Assembly: GCA_937899905.1 (NCBI GenBank)
Contig: CALCCF010000057.1
Coordinates: 1-64,000, forward strand
Source of the DNA: an uncultured Phycisphaeraceae bacterium
GTDB lineage: Bacteria > Planctomycetota > Phycisphaerae > Phycisphaerales > UBA1924
DNA: 64,000 bases
Reading direction: 5' to 3'
The notes beneath the pieces are model-generated. The model saw only the letters and a list, made by a program, of their open reading frames with translations, was not told the DNA's origin and did no database searches. Positions 17,662 through 61,821 of the stretch are shown in pieces. A program made the position numbers and the translations under genes. Each line of letters starts with the position of its first letter. The stretch's first letter is position 1.

Positions 17662-17734
17662 CGTGTTAGACTGGGTACTTGCCCGGGCGGCAATCCCTCC
17701 CACCCCGCACGCCCGTGGCTCGGGAGAACACACC
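17662..17734 (+). promoter_or_regulatory. Promoter and conserved leader of the first DUF1579 gene
   Basis: Contains TAGACT as a probable -10 and a leader of about 55 nt. Together with the ATG, this 76-nt block aligns without gaps to the block before the second DUF1579 gene at about 87% identity by eye. A CCCG/CGGG hairpin keeps its stem but differs in its loop between the copies, just before GGGAG. Confidence 0.6.
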
Positions 17735-18508
17735 ATGCTCGCACCGAACAACCTGCGCAACGCCGGCCTGCAGGCCCGTGGAACGATCGTCACTCCGATC
17801 ACCGCAATTGCGATCGCCACGATCGCCTTCGGTGCCGGCTCTTGGGTCACGCGCTCTGCAGACTCCACCCAAGATGTCGCGCGCGCCGTCCCCGTTCAAG
17901 AAGAAATGGACCCCGAGGCCATGATGGAGATGTACGCGCAGGCCGGCCAGCCCGATGAGCACCACGAATCGCTCAAGGTCTTCGTGGGCACATGGGACGC
18001 CGACCTCAAGACCATGATGCCCGGCATGGAGGAATTCAATACGACCGGAACTGCGACCTATGAGATGATGTTCGGCGACCGATTTATCAAGCTCGACTTC
18101 AGGAGCTCGGTGATGGGCGATCCGATGCGCGGCATGAACCTCACCGGCTACCACAAGGCGAGGCAACGCTACGAGAGCATCTGGATCGACGACAAGAACA
18201 CCGCGCTGAACTATCTCATCGGCCAAAAGACCGAAGACGGCTGGGTATACGAGGGTGAAGAGACCGATCCGGTCGCCGGCATGACGCTGCCGGTACGCGA
18301 CCTCATCGTGATGGACGGCGATGACAAGTTCACCTTCACGCGCCACTATCCAGCCGAAGCCGCAGCGGCAATGAACATCCCGGTAGAAGACGGACAAGAC
18401 TGGGTGCCGGGATTCCAGATCGTGTACACGCGGGCGAAGGCAGACGCCCAAGAGAAGCCGGAGCCACGAGTGGGGTTCGGCCCGACCAGGTTTGAATTCA
18501 GCTTCTGA
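17735..18508 (+). CDS. DUF1579-family protein with N-terminal membrane anchor
   Basis: The protein has 257 residues. Residues about 18-40 (IVTPITAIAIATIAFGAGSW) form a membrane segment or uncleaved signal; the DUF1579 domain follows: HHESLKVFVGTWDADLK, TGTATYEMMFGDRFIKLDF, MGDPMRGMNLTGYHKARQRYESIWID, and TEDGWVYEGEETDPVAG. The domain is predicted to be a lipocalin-like beta barrel; its ligand is unknown. The start ATG follows GGGAG by 9 nt and lies in the conserved leader block. It is a tandem paralog of the next gene; the two proteins share most domain motifs but differ at both ends. The tail is Pro/Gly-rich. Confidence 0.8.
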   Translation: MLAPNNLRNAGLQARGTIVTPITAIAIATIAFGAGSWVTRSADSTQDVARAVPVQEEMDPEAMMEMYAQAGQPDEHHESLKVFVGTWDADLKTMMPGMEEFNTTGTATYEMMFGDRFIKLDFRSSVMGDPMRGMNLTGYHKARQRYESIWIDDKNTALNYLIGQKTEDGWVYEGEETDPVAGMTLPVRDLIVMDGDDKFTFTRHYPAEAAAAMNIPVEDGQDWVPGFQIVYTRAKADAQEKPEPRVGFGPTRFEFSF

Positions 18509-18655: not shown

Positions 18656-18728
18656 CGTGGTACACTGGAAGCCTGCCCGGGCGGCACCCCCTCCCACCCC
18701 GCACGCCCGAGGCACGGGAGAACACACC
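18656..18728 (+). promoter_or_regulatory. Promoter and conserved leader of the second DUF1579 gene
   Basis: TACACT as -10 at the position aligned to TAGACT of the first copy, then the same C-rich leader and GGGAGAACACACC before ATG. The preceding 18509-18655 gap is not similar to the region before the first copy. Confidence 0.6.
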
Positions 18729-19478
18729 ATGAATGCATCAACCATCATCCGCTGCGCGGGCTCGCTGCCCCGTGGGCCAATCGCCGCCGTCGGTATCGCC
18801 GCAGCCCTCGCCTTCGGACTGGGATTCGTCGCAGCCACACGCTCCGTTGACTCCAACCAGGAACTCGCCAGCAGCGTGCTCGTTCAAGACCAGATGGACC
18901 AGGAAGCCATGATGGAAGCCTGGATGGAATCCATGCAGCCCGGCGAACAGCACGAGGCCATGGACGCCATGGTCGGCACGTGGAAGGCCGAGCTCAAGAG
19001 CATGATGGCGCCGATGGAGAGCGTCGGCACCGCGACATTCACGCGCGGCATGAACGGCAAGTTCGTACGCCAAGACTTCAACAGCAACATGATGGGCATC
19101 CCCATGCATGGCATCTCGTTCACCGGCTACAACAAGGTCCTCGATCGCTACGAGAGCGTCTGGTTTGACGACATGAACACAGCCATGTCGTTCATGACCG
19201 GCAAGAAGACCGAGAACGGCTGGGAGTACCACGGCGAGGAGACCGATCCGATGACCGGCAACACGCTGGACATCCGCGACCTGCTCATCGTGCACGGCGA
19301 AGACCACTTCACCTTCACGCGCCAGTATCCCGCTCAGGCCATGAAGGCCCAAGGAATGCCAGTGCCCGAGGGCGCCGAATGGGTCGACGGCTTCCAGGTC
19401 TCGTATACGCGGGCCGAAGGCGATCACGATCACGACCATGATCACGATGGCAACAGCGGCGGAAATAGCCACCGCTAA
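18729..19478 (+). CDS. DUF1579-family protein with His/Asp-rich tail, paralog of the preceding gene
   Basis: The protein has 249 residues. The plan matches its neighbour: a membrane segment at about 17-38 and a DUF1579 domain with QHEAMDAMVGTWKAEL, GMNGKFVRQDFNSNMMG, ISFTGYNKVLDRYESVWFDD and TENGWEYHGEETDPMTGN. It is distinguished by a C-terminal DHDHDHDHD run followed by Gly/Asn/Ser, a likely low-affinity metal-binding tail. The linker after the anchor is Met/Glu-rich. Function unknown. A strong hairpin follows. The duplication seems old: coding sequences have diverged more than the 76-nt leader. Confidence 0.8.
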   Translation: MNASTIIRCAGSLPRGPIAAVGIAAALAFGLGFVAATRSVDSNQELASSVLVQDQMDQEAMMEAWMESMQPGEQHEAMDAMVGTWKAELKSMMAPMESVGTATFTRGMNGKFVRQDFNSNMMGIPMHGISFTGYNKVLDRYESVWFDDMNTAMSFMTGKKTENGWEYHGEETDPMTGNTLDIRDLLIVHGEDHFTFTRQYPAQAMKAQGMPVPEGAEWVDGFQVSYTRAEGDHDHDHDHDGNSGGNSHR

Positions 19479-22083: not shown

Positions 22084-23988
22084 TCAGTCGCACCCTCCGG
22101 CAAACACGTCCTGGAACACCAGGAAGTCGAACAGGGTGAGCTGGCCGTCACCGTCAAGATCGGCCCGATCGAGGCGACCGGCCATGAACTCGTTCTGGAA
22201 CGCCAGGAAGTCGAAAACGTCGAGCATGCCAAACGGCGGCGCGAGATCGGCAACGCAGATCGTCTCAGTCACGAAGACATCGGGCTGCAACTCTCCGCGA
22301 ACGCTGGTATTCATGCGGATGATCTCGGACAGCGTGAGCGACTGGATCTGGTTGGACATCGACGGCGGCAGGTAGCTCTCGTACCAGAATCGATCGCCGT
22401 CGCGCAGGCGGATGAACTGGTCGCGCAAGATGCGGTACAGCGTCTCGCCCACGAAGGCGCCCGGACGGTGCCGCTCGGCGAGCAGGCCGACCCATGCGTC
22501 GATCTCATCTGGGTGCGAGTACACATCCGCGAGCCGATCCGCGGTCTCACGATCCGCCCCGACATCACGGAACGTGCGTGCCGGCGGCCGGCCAAACGCC
22601 ACCCGCAGCTCGTTATAGCTCGGCAAGCCGTGGTCGCGACCACGCTGGATGTTAAGCGAGACCAGATCAAACCCGCCCGAGCCGGGCGGCCCAAACAGGA
22701 AATTGCGCACGTTATCGATGACCCGGACATCAACGTCCTGGGCGTCCTGGCTCGCGAGCCCACGAAGCACCGGCTCGATGCCCGCCTCGACGATCTCACC
22801 GGGCACGAAGAACGCATCGGCGAGCTCGAGATGGCCACCCGGGATCTCGCGCCCCTGCGCATCGACACGCTTGAGCTCGCTGGACAGCATCGTGTGCCCT
22901 ACCCGATACGCAGCCGTCGCAAACAGGTTAGAGATGCCCGCATCGACCTCGGGGCGGTACCCCGCGTACGGCGGGATCGCCCCTGGCCCCAGCAGCTTGG
23001 GTAAGAATTCGTTGTACGTAATGGCTTGCATCTCGGCGGCCACCATCGCGCGCGCATGCTCGTAGATGCTATCGCCATCGAGGTGCGGTAGGTCTCGCGC
23101 GATCTGCGTCGCCAGCCGATTGTGCTCACGCACAAACAGCGTGTGCATGGCGATCAGCCCCACCTGCTCGTTGGCGCGGATGTCTCCAGCCAAGAAGAAG
23201 GACGGGTCGTACGCCGTCGGCGCATTCTCGAAGCCATTGACGTTGAACGGCAGGAGATCGCCATCGCTCGTCTTGAGCTTGCCGGTACCATCCAGCGTGC
23301 GAAGCTCGCGCGCACGCTCTTCGTCAGAGCCGTACACGTTCGACGCATCGATGTACGCCGTGATGTTATTGATCTGCTGGCGGACCATGCCCAAGCCGGA
23401 AGCCGCCGAACGATCCAAGGAGATAGTCACCTCGCCGGTACCGCGTGGGTCAAACCACGGGTCGCCAGCCGGCACCACGATGTCAAACTCCTCGGCCGGG
23501 CTCGCAACCGGGGTCTCATCGATGTCGTGATCGAGAAACTGGCCCCACTGCCATACAAAGTCGGAGAACCGGTAGGCATTGGGAACGCTGCCGCTGTCCT
23601 GTGCGGCCACGACACTGCTGATGAGCCGAGCACTGGGCCGACCACTCCCCGCGGGTGAGCCGACGCCGTCGCCATACGCCGCGGGAACCAGCCGCAGGAA
23701 CTCGATGCCCGCCGCACCCTGCAACGGATTCGCGAGGTTATTGAACGTGCCGTCGATCGTGCGAAACTCGAACGGGAACACCGCGGGAGTGTCCGTGGGC
23801 CCGTCGGTCGATCCACGCGTGCCCTCGGTATTGGCCAGCCGTGGGCCGCGCTGGACCGGTGATCGCTCGTTTGGCGACTGGTCCTGCGGCCCCACATCGG
23901 GCCCTTGGCTCTGGTTCTGAGCATGTGCGGCTGGCAACCCGGTCGCAAGCCCAACGATCGCGAACAGAACAGCGGTGCGTCGTGCCAT
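22084..23988 (-). CDS. Secreted animal-type haem peroxidase with dockerin-like C-terminus
   Basis: The protein has 634 residues. A signal peptide covers 1-23 (ending AHA). The peroxidase-cyclooxygenase core shows WGQFLDHDID with distal His154 and the adjacent Asp, a MHTLFVREHNRLA helix (281-293), QAITYNEFLP, proximal His365 in YRVGHTML, and NIQRGRDHG (446-454), all signatures of the myeloperoxidase/peroxidasin superfamily. After residue 580 comes a duplicated DVFDFLAFQNEF / LTLFDFLVFQDVF unit with DLDGDG, ending GGC: a dockerin-like calcium repeat typical of Phycisphaerales exported proteins. The start is set by AGGAG 8 nt upstream; the longer frame lacks it. Substrate unknown. Confidence 0.92.
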   Translation of the reverse strand: MARRTAVLFAIVGLATGLPAAHAQNQSQGPDVGPQDQSPNERSPVQRGPRLANTEGTRGSTDGPTDTPAVFPFEFRTIDGTFNNLANPLQGAAGIEFLRLVPAAYGDGVGSPAGSGRPSARLISSVVAAQDSGSVPNAYRFSDFVWQWGQFLDHDIDETPVASPAEEFDIVVPAGDPWFDPRGTGEVTISLDRSAASGLGMVRQQINNITAYIDASNVYGSDEERARELRTLDGTGKLKTSDGDLLPFNVNGFENAPTAYDPSFFLAGDIRANEQVGLIAMHTLFVREHNRLATQIARDLPHLDGDSIYEHARAMVAAEMQAITYNEFLPKLLGPGAIPPYAGYRPEVDAGISNLFATAAYRVGHTMLSSELKRVDAQGREIPGGHLELADAFFVPGEIVEAGIEPVLRGLASQDAQDVDVRVIDNVRNFLFGPPGSGGFDLVSLNIQRGRDHGLPSYNELRVAFGRPPARTFRDVGADRETADRLADVYSHPDEIDAWVGLLAERHRPGAFVGETLYRILRDQFIRLRDGDRFWYESYLPPSMSNQIQSLTLSEIIRMNTSVRGELQPDVFVTETICVADLAPPFGMLDVFDFLAFQNEFMAGRLDRADLDGDGQLTLFDFLVFQDVFAGGCD

Positions 23989-24196
23989 GGCTTGGCTCCT
24001 TGCGGGGAACGCGCGATCCCCGCTCAGAACCAAATTGTGCGCGGCGGCCGAGAGTGTGACACACCGCGGCGCAGAAATTCGCCGGTTCCGGTCCGACGGC
24101 ATCAGGGGTCCAAGATTAGTGGACCTATTTTCTCGGGCGATGTCACACTCGATCGGCTAACCGGCAATACGGTGCGGCGGGCGCGTCGCCCGTGTG

Positions 24197-57013: not shown

Positions 57014-59413
57014 GTGATCGTCGGAACGCTCCTTGCCATCTTCGGCTTGGCCATCCTGGCCCCGACGCTGCACCGCGTGCTCGGCCGTGCGACGGGCTAC
57101 GTGCTCGCGCTTGGGCCCGCCAGCGGTTTTGTCTACTACCTCACGCAGATGGCCTCGACCGCCAAAGGCGAGGCGGTTGTCCGATCGTGGACCTGGGCCG
57201 AGTCGCTGGGCGTCGACTTTGCCTTCCGGGTCGACTCGCTAAGCACGCTGTTCGCGCTGCTGGTGACCGGCGTGGGCACGGCCATCGTGCTGTACGCGAA
57301 CAGTTATCTTGAGGGCCACCCCAAACGGGGCCGTTTCTTCGGCTACCTCATGGGCTTCATGGGCGCGATGCTGGGCCTCGTGCTCGCCGACGACCTCATC
57401 CTGCTCTTCATCTTCTGGGAGCTGACGAGCATCACGAGTTATCTGCTCATCGGCTTCGACCATGAGCGCGAGAAGGCGCGCAAGAGCGCCCTACAGGCCT
57501 TGGTTATCACCGGATTGGGTGGCTTGGCCATGCTCGCCGGCCTCGTACTTCTCGGGCAAATCGCAGGCACGTTCTCCGTCTCGGGCATCATTGCGAATGC
57601 CGACGTGCTGGCCGAGAGCCAATTGACGCTAGCGGCAATGATCCTCGTGCTGGCCGGTGCTTTCACGAAGAGCGCCCAGTTCCCGTTCCACTTCTGGCTC
57701 CCCAACGCGATGGAGGCCCCCTCGCCGGTGAGTGCGTATCTGCACTCTTCGACGATGGTGAAGGCCGGTGTCTATCTCGTCGCCCGGCTGAACCCGGCCT
57801 TTGCCGAGGATCCGGCGTGGCAGTGGGCGCTTGCCGGTTTTGGTGGCGCGACGATGCTGATCGGAGCGTACCTCGCCACTCGCCAGACGTACTACAAGAA
57901 GGTCCTGGCCTACACGACCGTGAGCTCGCTGGGCATCATGGTCATGCTCATCGGGCTTGGCGCTCCGCAAGCCGCGGCGGCCTACATCCTTGCCCACGCG
58001 TTGTTCAAGGGCGCCCTATTCCTCGTCGCCGGCATCGTCGACCACGAGGCGGGCGTCAAAGACACCGAGCAGATGGGCGGGTTGTTCGGCAAGATGCCCG
58101 TCACGGCAATCGTGGCGATCGTCTCGGGGCTCTCGATGGCCGGCGTACCGCCGTTGCTCGGCTTCGTCGGCAAGGAGCTTCTTCTCAAGGGCAGCCTGCA
58201 TGCGCATGGTGGCCCGGAAGAGGTCGCCTGGCTCTGGCCGGTGATCGCGACGGTGGCTGGTGCATTCATGGCGGTGGCCGGCTTCCAGGCCGGCGTGCGG
58301 CCCTTCTTCATGAAGCGCACGGTCGAGGGCGAGTATCCCAAGCCGCCGCACGAGGCACCGCTCCCCATGCTCGCCGGGCCCGTCGTGCTGACAGCGCTGA
58401 CAGTCATTGGTGGCTTGGTACCGATCCTCTTCGCGAAGCCACTCATCGATGGCACGGCGGCCTCGATCGCCGGCAACAGCGACACTGAGCTCGTGAAGCT
58501 CAGCGCGATCTACCTCGCGACGCATCCGAGTACGGCGTTGCTGCTCAGCGGCGTTGCGCTCGTTGGGGGCGCGGTGCTCTTTGCGCTTCGCCGGCCTTGG
58601 CGCGCAATCACCGAGCCGTTTGATAGGGTCGCCCAAGCCATCGGTTGCGAGAGGCTCTACCACGTGCTCTTCGATGGCACCGTGGGACCGACGTCGCTCG
58701 CGACCGTGCAGACCAAGCTACTCCAAAGCGGCTACTTGCGTGTATACGTGCAGGTGACCGTCATGACCGTGCTGCTGCTCGCCGGCGGATTGCTGCTCTG
58801 GCGGGGCGACGTGGTCGGGCTCGTGCAGGCGGCGATGCCGAAGTTCAGCGAGATCTCATGGACAGAGTTCCTGTTCGAGGCCGTGCTGGTAGGCATGATC
58901 TGCGTGGCAGCGATCGCGGCAACGCAGATGCGCGGGCGGCTCTCGACCATCGCCGTGCTCGGCGTCGTGGGATACAGCTCGGCGGTCATATTCGTACTGT
59001 TCGGTGCACCCGACGTCGCGATGACACAGTTTGCCGTTGAGACACTCACGGTGATCATCTTCGTGCTGGTTGTGTACCACTTGCCTCGCTTTGCAGTTTA
59101 TAGCTCGAAGCTCGTCAAGACGGCGGACGCCGCGCTCGGCATCGCCTTCGGGCTCATGATGGCAGCATTCGTTGTCTCGTCCTTCGCGATCGAAGCCGAC
59201 GACGGCATCTCGTGGTACTACAACCACTTCGCGTTCCCCGACCAAGCCGGCGAGCATGCGGCATACGGGCGCAACCTCGTCAACATCATCCTGGTCGACT
59301 TCCGCTCGATCGATACGCTGGGTGAGATTGCAGTGCTGGGCTTGGCCGCAGTGGGCGTGTACACGCTGCTGCGGCTCCGCCAGGATCGCGCGCCGGAAGG
59401 GGGGATGGCGTGA
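57014..59413 (+). CDS. mrpA: Na+/H+ antiporter subunit A (MrpA)
   Basis: The protein has 799 residues, the usual MrpA length, with about 20 membrane helices. The antiporter core resembles complex I NuoL: FRVDSLSTLFALLVTGVGTAIVLYANSYL, FIFWELTSITSYLLIGFDHEREKARKSALQAL with the conserved Glu, FTKSAQFPFHFWLPNAMEAPSPVSAYLHSSTMVKAGVYL with the conserved Lys, and AYTTVSSLG. The C-terminal part carries the DUF4040/MrpA-specific helices (LGVVGYSSAVIFVLFGAPDVAMTQFAVET). It couples Na+ export to H+ import. The GTG start has GGAG upstream and the stop overlaps the GTG of mrpB. Confidence 0.95.
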   Translation: MIVGTLLAIFGLAILAPTLHRVLGRATGYVLALGPASGFVYYLTQMASTAKGEAVVRSWTWAESLGVDFAFRVDSLSTLFALLVTGVGTAIVLYANSYLEGHPKRGRFFGYLMGFMGAMLGLVLADDLILLFIFWELTSITSYLLIGFDHEREKARKSALQALVITGLGGLAMLAGLVLLGQIAGTFSVSGIIANADVLAESQLTLAAMILVLAGAFTKSAQFPFHFWLPNAMEAPSPVSAYLHSSTMVKAGVYLVARLNPAFAEDPAWQWALAGFGGATMLIGAYLATRQTYYKKVLAYTTVSSLGIMVMLIGLGAPQAAAAYILAHALFKGALFLVAGIVDHEAGVKDTEQMGGLFGKMPVTAIVAIVSGLSMAGVPPLLGFVGKELLLKGSLHAHGGPEEVAWLWPVIATVAGAFMAVAGFQAGVRPFFMKRTVEGEYPKPPHEAPLPMLAGPVVLTALTVIGGLVPILFAKPLIDGTAASIAGNSDTELVKLSAIYLATHPSTALLLSGVALVGGAVLFALRRPWRAITEPFDRVAQAIGCERLYHVLFDGTVGPTSLATVQTKLLQSGYLRVYVQVTVMTVLLLAGGLLLWRGDVVGLVQAAMPKFSEISWTEFLFEAVLVGMICVAAIAATQMRGRLSTIAVLGVVGYSSAVIFVLFGAPDVAMTQFAVETLTVIIFVLVVYHLPRFAVYSSKLVKTADAALGIAFGLMMAAFVVSSFAIEADDGISWYYNHFAFPDQAGEHAAYGRNLVNIILVDFRSIDTLGEIAVLGLAAVGVYTLLRLRQDRAPEGGMA

Positions 59414-59826
59414 ATTCCATCATCCTCCGCACCGCCACGCGTTTCATGCTCCCACTGCTGATCCTGTTCAGCGTGATCGTGCTGCTGCGCGGGCACAACC
59501 TGCCGGGCGGCGGGTTCGTCGGCGGGCTGCTGGCCACCAGCGCTTTCGTTCTCTACGCGATGGCGTTCGGCGTCCCGGCATTGCAACGGCTCTTGCGTCT
59601 CCCGCTCACCACCTACATCGCGGTCGGCCTTGGCATGGCGATCGTGAGCGGGTTCCCATCGTTAATCGAGGGTGGACCGTTCCTCTACGGCATGTGGGGC
59701 AGCTTCAACCTGGCGGGCATCGGCGAGATCAAGGTCGGCACCCCGCTTCTGTTCGATATCGGCGTCTACTTCACCGTCATGGGCGTGTGCCTGATGATGC
59801 TACTCACCCTGGCGGAAGAGTCATAA
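59410..59826 (+). CDS. mrpB: Na+/H+ antiporter subunit B (MrpB)
   Basis: The protein has 138 residues and four membrane helices. Family landmarks: [38 protein letters not shown] and [32 protein letters not shown] is diagnostic for MrpB. The GTG start is coupled to mrpA (GTGA). Its stop is followed by 10 bp, then the mrpC start with GGGAGG between. Confidence 0.94.
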
Positions 59827-59836
59827 GGGAGGCCGC

Positions 59837-60184
59837 ATGGAACTGCTACTTGCCATCGCGGTCGGAGCCTTGTACGCCACGGGGATCTACATGATCCTGC
59901 GGCGCAGCTTCGTGAAGCTCATCATCGGTCTTGCGCTCATAAGCCACGGGGCGAACTTGCTGATCTTCGCCGCCGGCGGGCTCATTCGCGGCAACCCGGC
60001 GCTCATCCCCGAGGATCAGGAGCAACTCACGGGCAAGTTCAGCGACCCGTTGCCGCCGGCGCTCATCCTGACGGCCATCGTCATCAGCTTTGCCATCCTG
60101 TCGTTCACCATCGTGCTCGTGAAGCGCACATACCAGGAGGTTGGCACCGACGACCTCGACGCCATGCGGACCACCGACCGATGA
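59837..60184 (+). CDS. mrpC: Na+/H+ antiporter subunit C (MrpC)
   Basis: The protein has 115 residues and three membrane helices; NuoK-like. [41 protein letters not shown] and [25 protein letters not shown] are the conserved segments. GGGAGG lies about 6 nt before the ATG. Its TGA overlaps the ATG of mrpD (ATGA). Confidence 0.94.
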
Positions 60185-61821
60185 ACCTCACCGTGATCCT
60201 GCCCATCCTGGTTCCTCTTGCCACAACGGTGCTGTGCATCGGGTTGTGGAAGAACCGGGCTGCGCAGCGGTGGTTCAGCGTCGCCGGTGCGGTCGCGCTC
60301 TTCGCGTCAGCGGTCTGGCTGATGATGGGCACCAGCGATGGCGAGGTGCTCACAACCAACTCGGCGGGTTGGCCCGCCCCATTCGGCATCACGCTCGTCG
60401 CCGACACGCTCAGCGCGATGCTTGTGGTGCTCAACGGCGTGGTGGGCGTGTGCATCGTGGTCTACAGCCTCGGCGCGATCGATCGCAAGCGAGAGAGCTT
60501 CGGCTACCACCCGCTGGTGCACGCCGTACTTGCGGCCTGCTCGGGCGCCTTCATGACCGGCGACATCTTCAACATGTACGTCTGGTTCGAGATCATGCTG
60601 CTGGCCTCGTTTGTGCTGCTCACTCTGGGCGGAGAGCGCGGCCAGCTCGAGGGCGCCATCAAGTACGTCACGCTGAACCTGCTCTCCAGCGGCATCTTCC
60701 TCGCTGCCATCGGCCTGCTCTACGGCATGACCGGCACGCTGAACATGGCCCATCTGGCGATCGTTCTGGATCGCTCGGAGAACCCAGGGGCGATCACGGC
60801 GCTGTCGATGTTGTTCCTGGTCGCGTTTGGCATCAAGGCCGCGGTCTTTCCGCTGTTCTTCTGGCTGCCGGCCAGCTACCACACGCCGCCAGTGGCAATC
60901 ACCGCGCTCTTTGCGGGCCTGCTGACCAAGGTTGGCGTCTACTCGATCATCCGCACGTTCACACTGCTGTTCGACCAGCAGCTCGACACGACGGCCACGA
61001 TCATCATGTGGATTAGCGGCCTGACGATGGTGACCGGCGTGCTCGGTGCCGCGTGCCAGTTTGAGATCCGCCGCATCCTGGCGTTCCACAGCGTGAGCCA
61101 GATCGGCTACATGCTCATGGGCCTGGGCATCGCGCTGTACGCGCTGGCGCACGCCGAGCCTGACAGCGTGGCGGCGCGAGAGACGGCCAAGGTCGCCCTC
61201 GCCGGCTCGGCCATGTTCCTCTTGCACCACGGCATCGTGAAGGGCAACCTCTTCCTGATCAGCGGGCTGATCCAGCGTCTTGCGGGCACGAGCGAACTGA
61301 AGCACCTAGGCGGGCTGATCAAAACGCACCCGTGGACAGGCGTGCTGTTCCTCGTCTCCGCACTCTCGCTTGCGGGCATCCCGATCTCGACAGGCTTCTG
61401 GGGCAAGTTCGTCCTGGTCAAGAGCGGCTTGTCCGCTGGCGCGTTCGCGCTGGTGGCGGCGTCGCTTGGCGTGAGCATCCTGACGCTGTACTCGATGACC
61501 AAGATCTGGGCCGAAGCGTTCTGGAAGGAGCCGCCCGAGAGCATGCCCGAGCCCCCACCGGTCCACGGCACACAAGATCGCGTTCGTATCGGCCTTATGA
61601 CCGCCCCGATCGTGGCGCTCGCGGCGGGCACACTCGTCCTTGGCATCTTCGTCGGCCCGCTTTACGCGGTGGCCGAACGCGCCGGCGAGCAGGTGCTCGA
61701 CACCGAGGGCTACCAGCGTGCGGTGCTGGGTGAGTACTACGAGCGAGCCGTCGAAGGCACGCTCCGCGAGTTGGCTACCGTTCCCCCGGCGAACGGTGAT
61801 GGCACGGAGGGCAAGCCATAG
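60181..61821 (+). CDS. mrpD: Na+/H+ antiporter subunit D (MrpD)
   Basis: The protein has 546 residues with about 14 membrane helices, NuoN/NuoM-like. Key segments: [22 protein letters not shown] (Glu), [49 protein letters not shown] (two key Lys) and [16 protein letters not shown], which build the ion path. The cytoplasmic end has [17 protein letters not shown]. It starts in an ATGA overlap with mrpC. Its TAG forms the ATAG overlap with the proposed mrpE start. Confidence 0.95.
61806..61811 (+). promoter_or_regulatory. Shine-Dalgarno site for mrpE with a non-standard start codon
   Basis: GGAGGG lies 6 nt before ATA (61818-61820). No ATG, GTG or TTG in the mrpE frame occurs between the upstream in-frame TGA (61797-61799) and the ATG at 61863, where no good Shine-Dalgarno site exists. 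Confidence 0.6.

Follow-up and report, generated by a model that had tools for sequence, protein, structure and literature searches.

The window, by which we mean the whole stretch of 64,000 nucleotides analysed here, carries on its minus strand a gene whose product, judged from its sequence, almost certainly combines a signal peptide, a haem peroxidase and a C-terminal dockerin (Table 1). The longest open frame in the ORF listing spans positions 22084-24102 and has 672 amino acids; residue numbers of the window protein refer to this frame. Because a Sec-type signal peptide, recognised by eye, begins at residue 39, we placed the start at this methionine, which gives the upper coordinate of 23988 and 22084-23988 (634 amino acids) as the most likely extent of the gene. 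The AlphaFold model of the peroxidase has a mean pLDDT of 84.3 and a pTM of 0.84. The gene is flanked by a prolyl oligopeptidase gene on one side and by a gene for a divergent sigma-70-type factor on the other, neither of which gives a hint to its function. Elsewhere in the window, two adjoining DUF1579 genes (17663-18508 and 18657-19478) are likely the result of a tandem duplication, and positions 57014-61821 encode subunits of a Mrp-type antiporter, with Proton_antipo_M in two frames, one of which also includes MbhD and MbhE parts.

Table 1. Features of the peroxidase gene and its product in the window (residues numbered in the 672-aa frame).
Feature	Position	Strand	Remarks
Secreted peroxidase with GC-type dockerin, gene (most likely extent)	22084..23988	-	Start = Met39 of longest frame, chosen by eye from signal peptide; 634 aa, to stop codon
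Sec-type signal peptide, residues 39-61 (MARRTAVLFAIVGLATGLPAAHA, then Q)	23920..23988	-	Read by eye
Linker, residues 62-112	23767..23919	-	AlphaFold model: pLDDT <50 for first 42 residues
Animal haem peroxidase domain PF03098, residues 113-610	22273..23766	-	E 2.5e-158; 8s6c matches
Distal haem histidine His192 (QFLDHD)	23527..23529	-	Invariant; aligned to CyanoPOX His81
Proximal haem histidine His403 (RVGHTM)	22894..22896	-	Invariant; aligned to CyanoPOX His294
GC-type dockerin, residues 616-671	22090..22257	-	NF041540; predicted model resembles dockerins, weak scores

The sequence-only reading of this DNA had described a complete animal-type peroxidase core with both haem histidines, and our data agree: in a domain search PF03098 matches over its whole length (model positions 1-530 of 530, 528.4 bits against a cut-off of 25), and the distal and proximal histidines are present and invariant among the relatives compared. 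The residue set of the superfamily is complete, with His192 and Arg309 on the distal side, Asp191 and Glu312 for the haem esters, and His403 paired with Asn484 (roles after passages in PMC4420034 and PMC11776367). Five of these residues (His192, Arg309, Glu312, His403 and Asn484) are invariant in 28 dockerin-tailed peroxidases, and the same five, in core numbering, across 21 cores. The closest solved structure, by sequence (E 4.8e-164) as well as by fold (Foldseek E 1.9e-60, 54% identity), is PDB 8s6c, the bacterial lactoperoxidase CyanoPOX of Cyanobacterium sp. TDX16, with which the window peroxidase shares its fold. Identical residues are aligned in the window protein to His81, Arg199, Asp80, Glu202, His294 and Asn376 of CyanoPOX and to its calcium ligands Asp82, Thr140, Asp144 and Ser146, the haem-site and calcium-site residues being those named by its authors in the relevant passages of PMC11776367. 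By these comparisons the enzyme is a lactoperoxidase-like bacterial relative of the milk and white-cell peroxidases, and the haem enzyme itself is ordinary for its superfamily. CyanoPOX is also the closest characterised relative and oxidises iodide and aromatic compounds (PMC11776367); by analogy, the window peroxidase may do the same. The two proteins differ at their C-terminal ends, where CyanoPOX has a PEP-CTERM (PMC11776367) and the window protein a GC-type dockerin. A second, distinct peroxidase in the host genome (contig C73) is likewise dockerin-tailed and adjoins another tailed protein.

The view that bacterial members of this superfamily are sparse did not hold, and rarity is ruled out by at least 535 confirmed related stretches and by matches in 35 of 100 sampled genomes of the family. 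Nor is the combination of peroxidase and dockerin new: bacterial animal-type peroxidases with a dockerin part are already in print as peroxidockerins, Family 6 of the peroxidase-cyclooxygenase superfamily (PMC4420034, in its passages on this family), and the window protein likewise joins the two domains. The likeness lies in the domain combination, since the passages of PMC4420034 on peroxidockerins are silent on the tail subtype.

The tail itself is already a named NCBIfam domain. As expected from the dockerin-like tail noticed earlier behind the peroxidase core, residues 616-671 of 672 pass NF041540 (dockerin_GC) with 37.9 bits at a cut-off of 29, in a C-terminal position and with the Gly-Cys end, a criterion that we read from the domain name and the sequences. 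The terminal GGC of the sequence-only reading is accurate for Gly-Gly-Cys and inaccurate for the very end of the protein, which is GGCD. The window tail is above the curated cut-off, yet it is divergent for its genome, in which all of the copies listed (at least 150) score 41 bits or more, and only the second of its calcium loops (DLDGDGQLTLFD) is canonical, the first (DLAPPFGMLDVFD) being degenerate. In contrast, type I cellulosomal dockerins have two calcium loops with ligands at loop positions 1, 3, 5, 9 and 12 (PMC4582956, in its description of the loops). PF00404 (Dockerin_1) does not match the window protein at E 0.1, and it matches six of the 28 dockerin-tailed peroxidases at 0.01. The predicted model of the tail (pLDDT 88.5, pTM 0.74) is most like cellulosomal type I dockerins such as PDB 2vn5, with which it shares the two F-hand repeats, at scores that are weak throughout: dockerins make up 11 of 16 Foldseek matches at E up to 10, the best at E 0.23, and the best match by VIA is a dockerin with a Z of 5.8, where a Z below 8 may, according to the warning of the tool, reflect a common arrangement. 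The window tail differs from the cellulosomal type I in its flanking pair of cysteines, in the many other kinds of host proteins that carry it, and in that a cohesin was not detected in the genome. PEP motif, hydrophobic helix and Arg cluster are absent from it, and no PEP-CTERM model matches at E 1. In nine of ten sampled tails of another genome, G021 (L203-L211), both repeats are without the usual calcium ligands 3 and 5 (DLAxPxGxLDIAD), so that most of the G021 set may no longer bind calcium.

In the 3.63 Mb host genome NF041540 matches in at least 150 places, the number scored out of 237 candidates, and each of these passes the cut-off. There was no match in 14 control genomes, which rules out a chance resemblance of the tail. 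It had been asked of this tail that it should recur on other exported proteins, and this is borne out by the same copies, because a Sec-like start is present in 101 of the 136 tailed host proteins in hand that are longer than 150 amino acids (by a crude script). These proteins are diverse: among 90 scanned of the 136, 24 match FG-GAP_3 and two are peroxidases, and further tailed families include beta-helix, subtilase and reprolysin (from the 25 commonest of 47 families). The GC-type dockerin was matched in 90 of 100 sampled genomes of the family. In a sample of the phylum it occurs in five of 118 genomes, all of them of the genus of the window, which are the only family members listed in that sample. 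Counts that reach 150 in the host genome, or 53 and 46 per genome in the family and phylum samples, respectively, are lower bounds. A sorting or anchoring role, as suggested by the sequence-only reading, is likely. A literature search retrieved no paper for 'GC-type dockerin' as a phrase and none for dockerin, PEP-CTERM and planctomycetes together, and in a narrow search we met no description of tail dialects or of the cysteine linkage reported below.

In 133 host tails of the commonest spacing the consensus reads C-x-a-D-l-D-g-D-G-x-L-t-x-F-D-F-L-a-F-Q-n-l-F, repeated and ending in G-C, and the window dockerin similarly consists of two F-hand repeats flanked by two cysteines (CVADL ... AGGC). 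Among the 28 dockerin-tailed peroxidases, 22 possess both flanking cysteines, six neither and none a single one (all cysteine counts use wide windows, and these 28 were also checked by eye); the Fisher value of 2.7e-6 for this pairing ignores relatedness, and the six without cysteines represent about three or four groups in the tree. Both cysteines are likewise found in 131 of 132 host tails that fit the pattern of our script, the remaining one being without the last cysteine, and in 39 of 39 tails from three other genomes; five host tails outside the pattern, including L086, L060 and L064, were set aside. One peroxidase tail of genome G052 keeps the dialect of that genome and has neither cysteine. 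Since the two residues are present or absent together, the last cysteine is more likely part of a disulfide than a cleavage or lipid site; the pairing is less readily explained if the terminal residue acted by itself. On the other hand, 140 of 142 host frames that match the inner tail end zero or one residue after the last cysteine, one of the remaining two being without that cysteine and one N-terminal (two of the 142 are short and doubtful), and such a strict end of the tail would also fit a C-terminal processing signal. The sole copy that is not C-terminal, L086:533-2722 (host genome, minus strand), has its GC-type dockerin directly behind the signal peptide, keeps both cysteines, and belongs to a protein with a weak match to PETase/chlorophyllase-like hydrolases. 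Single-repeat tails with both cysteines kept are found at L060:11931-13529 and L064:3384-5075 (both host genome, minus strand).

The tails further show a dialect of the genome in which they reside, with four dialects for the four genomes compared. The motif LTxFDFLAFQ of the host genome corresponds mostly to LNFLDVSAFL in G097, to LDIADVVAFL in G021 and to LNxDDIDAFV in G052, as seen in samples of 20 tails from G097, ten from G021 and nine of ten from G052, hand-picked down the ranked list among the matches listed; L201 and L212 are exceptions among the sampled tails, as neither follows the dialect of its genome. When the seven peroxidase tails of the four genomes were scored against other proteins, genome by genome, the median was in all seven cases highest for the genome of the tail itself. 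For the window tail this median is 135, compared to a score of 51 against the tail of L004, the peroxidase with the core most similar to that of the window (about 69-70% identity); the tails of these two differ, and each matches its own genome. Two peroxidase tails from other species of the genus of the window (L019 and L021) are in the host-genome dialect, and thus one dialect can span a genus. The four genomes agree at the hydrophobic repeat positions 16 and 20 and diverge most at F-hand positions 14, 11, 17, 13, 21, 9, 10 and 18. Recognition positions of cellulosomal dockerins have been given as 10, 11, 17, 18 and 22 (PMC4582956, in its account of recognition), and four of these five are among the eight most divergent of the 17 positions compared (7-11 and 13-24), an overlap that is suggestive, though with a hypergeometric sum of about 0.11 not significant.

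That the dialect arose from recent copying alone was rejected on codon identities that in part point in different ways. Codons at the same tail positions are identical at 0.664, compared to 0.538 expected from codon usage, which speaks for copying, and codons between different positions of the same tails are identical at 0.634, which speaks against it. Given the closeness of 0.664 to 0.634, recent copying can account for the dialect in part at most, and the shared dialect could partly derive from old duplications of tails.

Tails have apparently been exchanged behind the peroxidase domain. Most of the extracted relatives from outside Phycisphaerales end within some tens of residues behind the core and have no dockerin, and peroxidases of Phycisphaerales carry at the same junction either a dockerin-like tail (28 in our tree) or a PEP-CTERM-like one (17 in the tree, plus L023). 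The tree comprises 67 of 105 extracted peroxidases, namely these 28 and 17 and 22 untailed sequences chosen by hand; the tails were classed by hand as well. L103 was left out because it lies on the same contig as L002. From the scan of the family genomes, 39 of 45 peroxidase places are in the tree, and the other six are L023 and five fragments that are cut by a contig end or form parts of odd frames. NF041540 matches 26 of the 28 dockerin-like tails at E 0.1. The PEP-type label was given by reading PxP, a hydrophobic run and an Arg cluster, and the PEP_CTERM model matches just four of the 17 tails so labelled even at E 0.1; other PEP, PGAP or MYXO models match one to three each. By a quick method, the tail labels change four times on the tree for dockerin (three of the changes forced by starred branches), three times for PEP and twice for untailed, so that dockerin tails joined or left the peroxidase family more than once. 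In G052 and in G095, dockerin-like and PEP-like tails occur side by side on peroxidase paralogues of one genome. Of 80 peroxidase loci 67 were extracted; among the remaining 13, viewed separately, 12 have no dockerin tail, and in L114 the contig breaks off at what looks like the start of a dockerin-like tail. The related peroxidase L163:3743-5821 presumably carries yet another tag after its core, which we take by eye to be a FlgD-like or type IX-like sorting tail.

From the architecture, the catalytic residues, the many tagged proteins, the linked cysteines and the dialects of four genomes, all read at the level of sequence, we consider it on balance probable that the window encodes a lactoperoxidase-like enzyme that is secreted and stays attached to the surface through a disulfide-closed dockerin, the partner of which is not recognisable as a cohesin. 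The haem enzyme would be exported by the Sec route, and its C-terminal GC-type dockerin would hold it at the cell surface or in the extracellular matrix. The two F-hands of this dockerin may be closed by a disulfide from the first to the last cysteine, and it would dock to one partner, other than a recognisable cohesin, that is used by most tagged proteins of the genome. With H2O2 supplied from outside, the enzyme could then oxidise small substrates, possibly iodide and phenols, next to the cell. Points that count against this reading are the strict C-terminal end of the host tails, the low score of the window tail, the degenerate calcium ligands in its first repeat and in both repeats of the nine G021 tails, the G052 peroxidase tail that has neither cysteine, L201 and L212 with their deviating dialect, and a possible share of old tail duplications in the dialects.

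Alternatively, the tail could direct the protein to a dedicated machinery for export or processing, in the manner of PEP-CTERM and exosortase; it would then be a C-terminal sorting signal, with Gly-Cys as a processing or lipid-attachment site. The near-strict C-terminal position of the tail (140 of 142 frames), the PEP-CTERM-like tails at the same junction of related peroxidases, and the PEP-CTERM of CyanoPOX as the closest solved enzyme (PMC11776367, as above) are consistent with it, and an exosortase is found in 100 of 100 sampled family genomes. However, that count includes the ten genomes without a GC-dockerin match, so exosortase does not track the tag and was discarded as its explanation, and the paralogues of G052 and G095 indicate that dockerin-like and PEP-like signals coexist. 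Moreover, both cysteines come or go together among the 28 peroxidase tails, the two single-repeat tails keep the pair, one copy is N-terminal, and the window tail is without a long hydrophobic stretch or an Arg cluster. We regard a sorting signal of this kind as unlikely. PEP_CTERM has ten matches in the host genome. The type IX component SprA (TIGR04189) gave no match there, and none in the controls either, so that little weight can be put on it.

A classical cohesin-dockerin scaffold, i.e. a cellulosome or the proposed 'planctosome', would require that the cohesin is too divergent for detection or missing from the draft assembly. The resemblance of the tail model to dockerins (at weak scores) and the published recognition positions 10, 11, 17 and 18 (PMC4582956, same account) among the divergent F-hand positions would agree with such docking, and a cohesin-dockerin system has been proposed for freshwater planctomycetes (PMC6461901, in the passage concerned). 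On the other hand, the overlap of positions is not significant, cohesin PF00963 has no match in the host genome (95% complete, 113 contigs), and it is found in 11 of 100 sampled family genomes at E 0.001 (in nine over the cut-off) versus 90 of 100 with a GC-type dockerin; we give this explanation somewhat less credence still. It is improbable, finally, that the tail is a stabilising calcium-binding module without any partner and that its likeness within a genome results from domain duplication and shuffling. Codon identity above the expectation from codon usage, and some pairs of tails, several of them in neighbouring genes, that look like recent copies, would be explained in this way. Yet codons that occupy the same tail position match hardly better than codons from different tail positions, so that present-day selection seems to maintain the amino acids, and the window peroxidase and L004, with cores about 69-70% identical, have tails that each fit their own genome.

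A wider reading, to which we give slightly less than even odds, is that the dockerin may have become a genome-wide address tag in this planctomycete family. A single type of disulfide-closed module would then sit on as many as a hundred or more exported proteins of a genome and be recognised by a single non-cohesin partner that changes between lineages, each with its own dialect, and the peroxidases would be some passengers among many. A tag that is carried by at least 150 host proteins and occurs in 90 of 100 family genomes, of which just 11 have a cohesin match, is poorly understood, and if the tails of each lineage share one binding face, the missing receptor becomes a defined target. The peroxidase paralogues of G052 and G095 with their different tags provide a natural test of the job of each tag.

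The host genome also encodes a third, divergent exosortase (G000:C82:18117-18866, 93.9 bits); three exosortases are likewise present in G023 and G083, which belong to the same genus, and in G022, and one or two in the other 96 sampled genomes.
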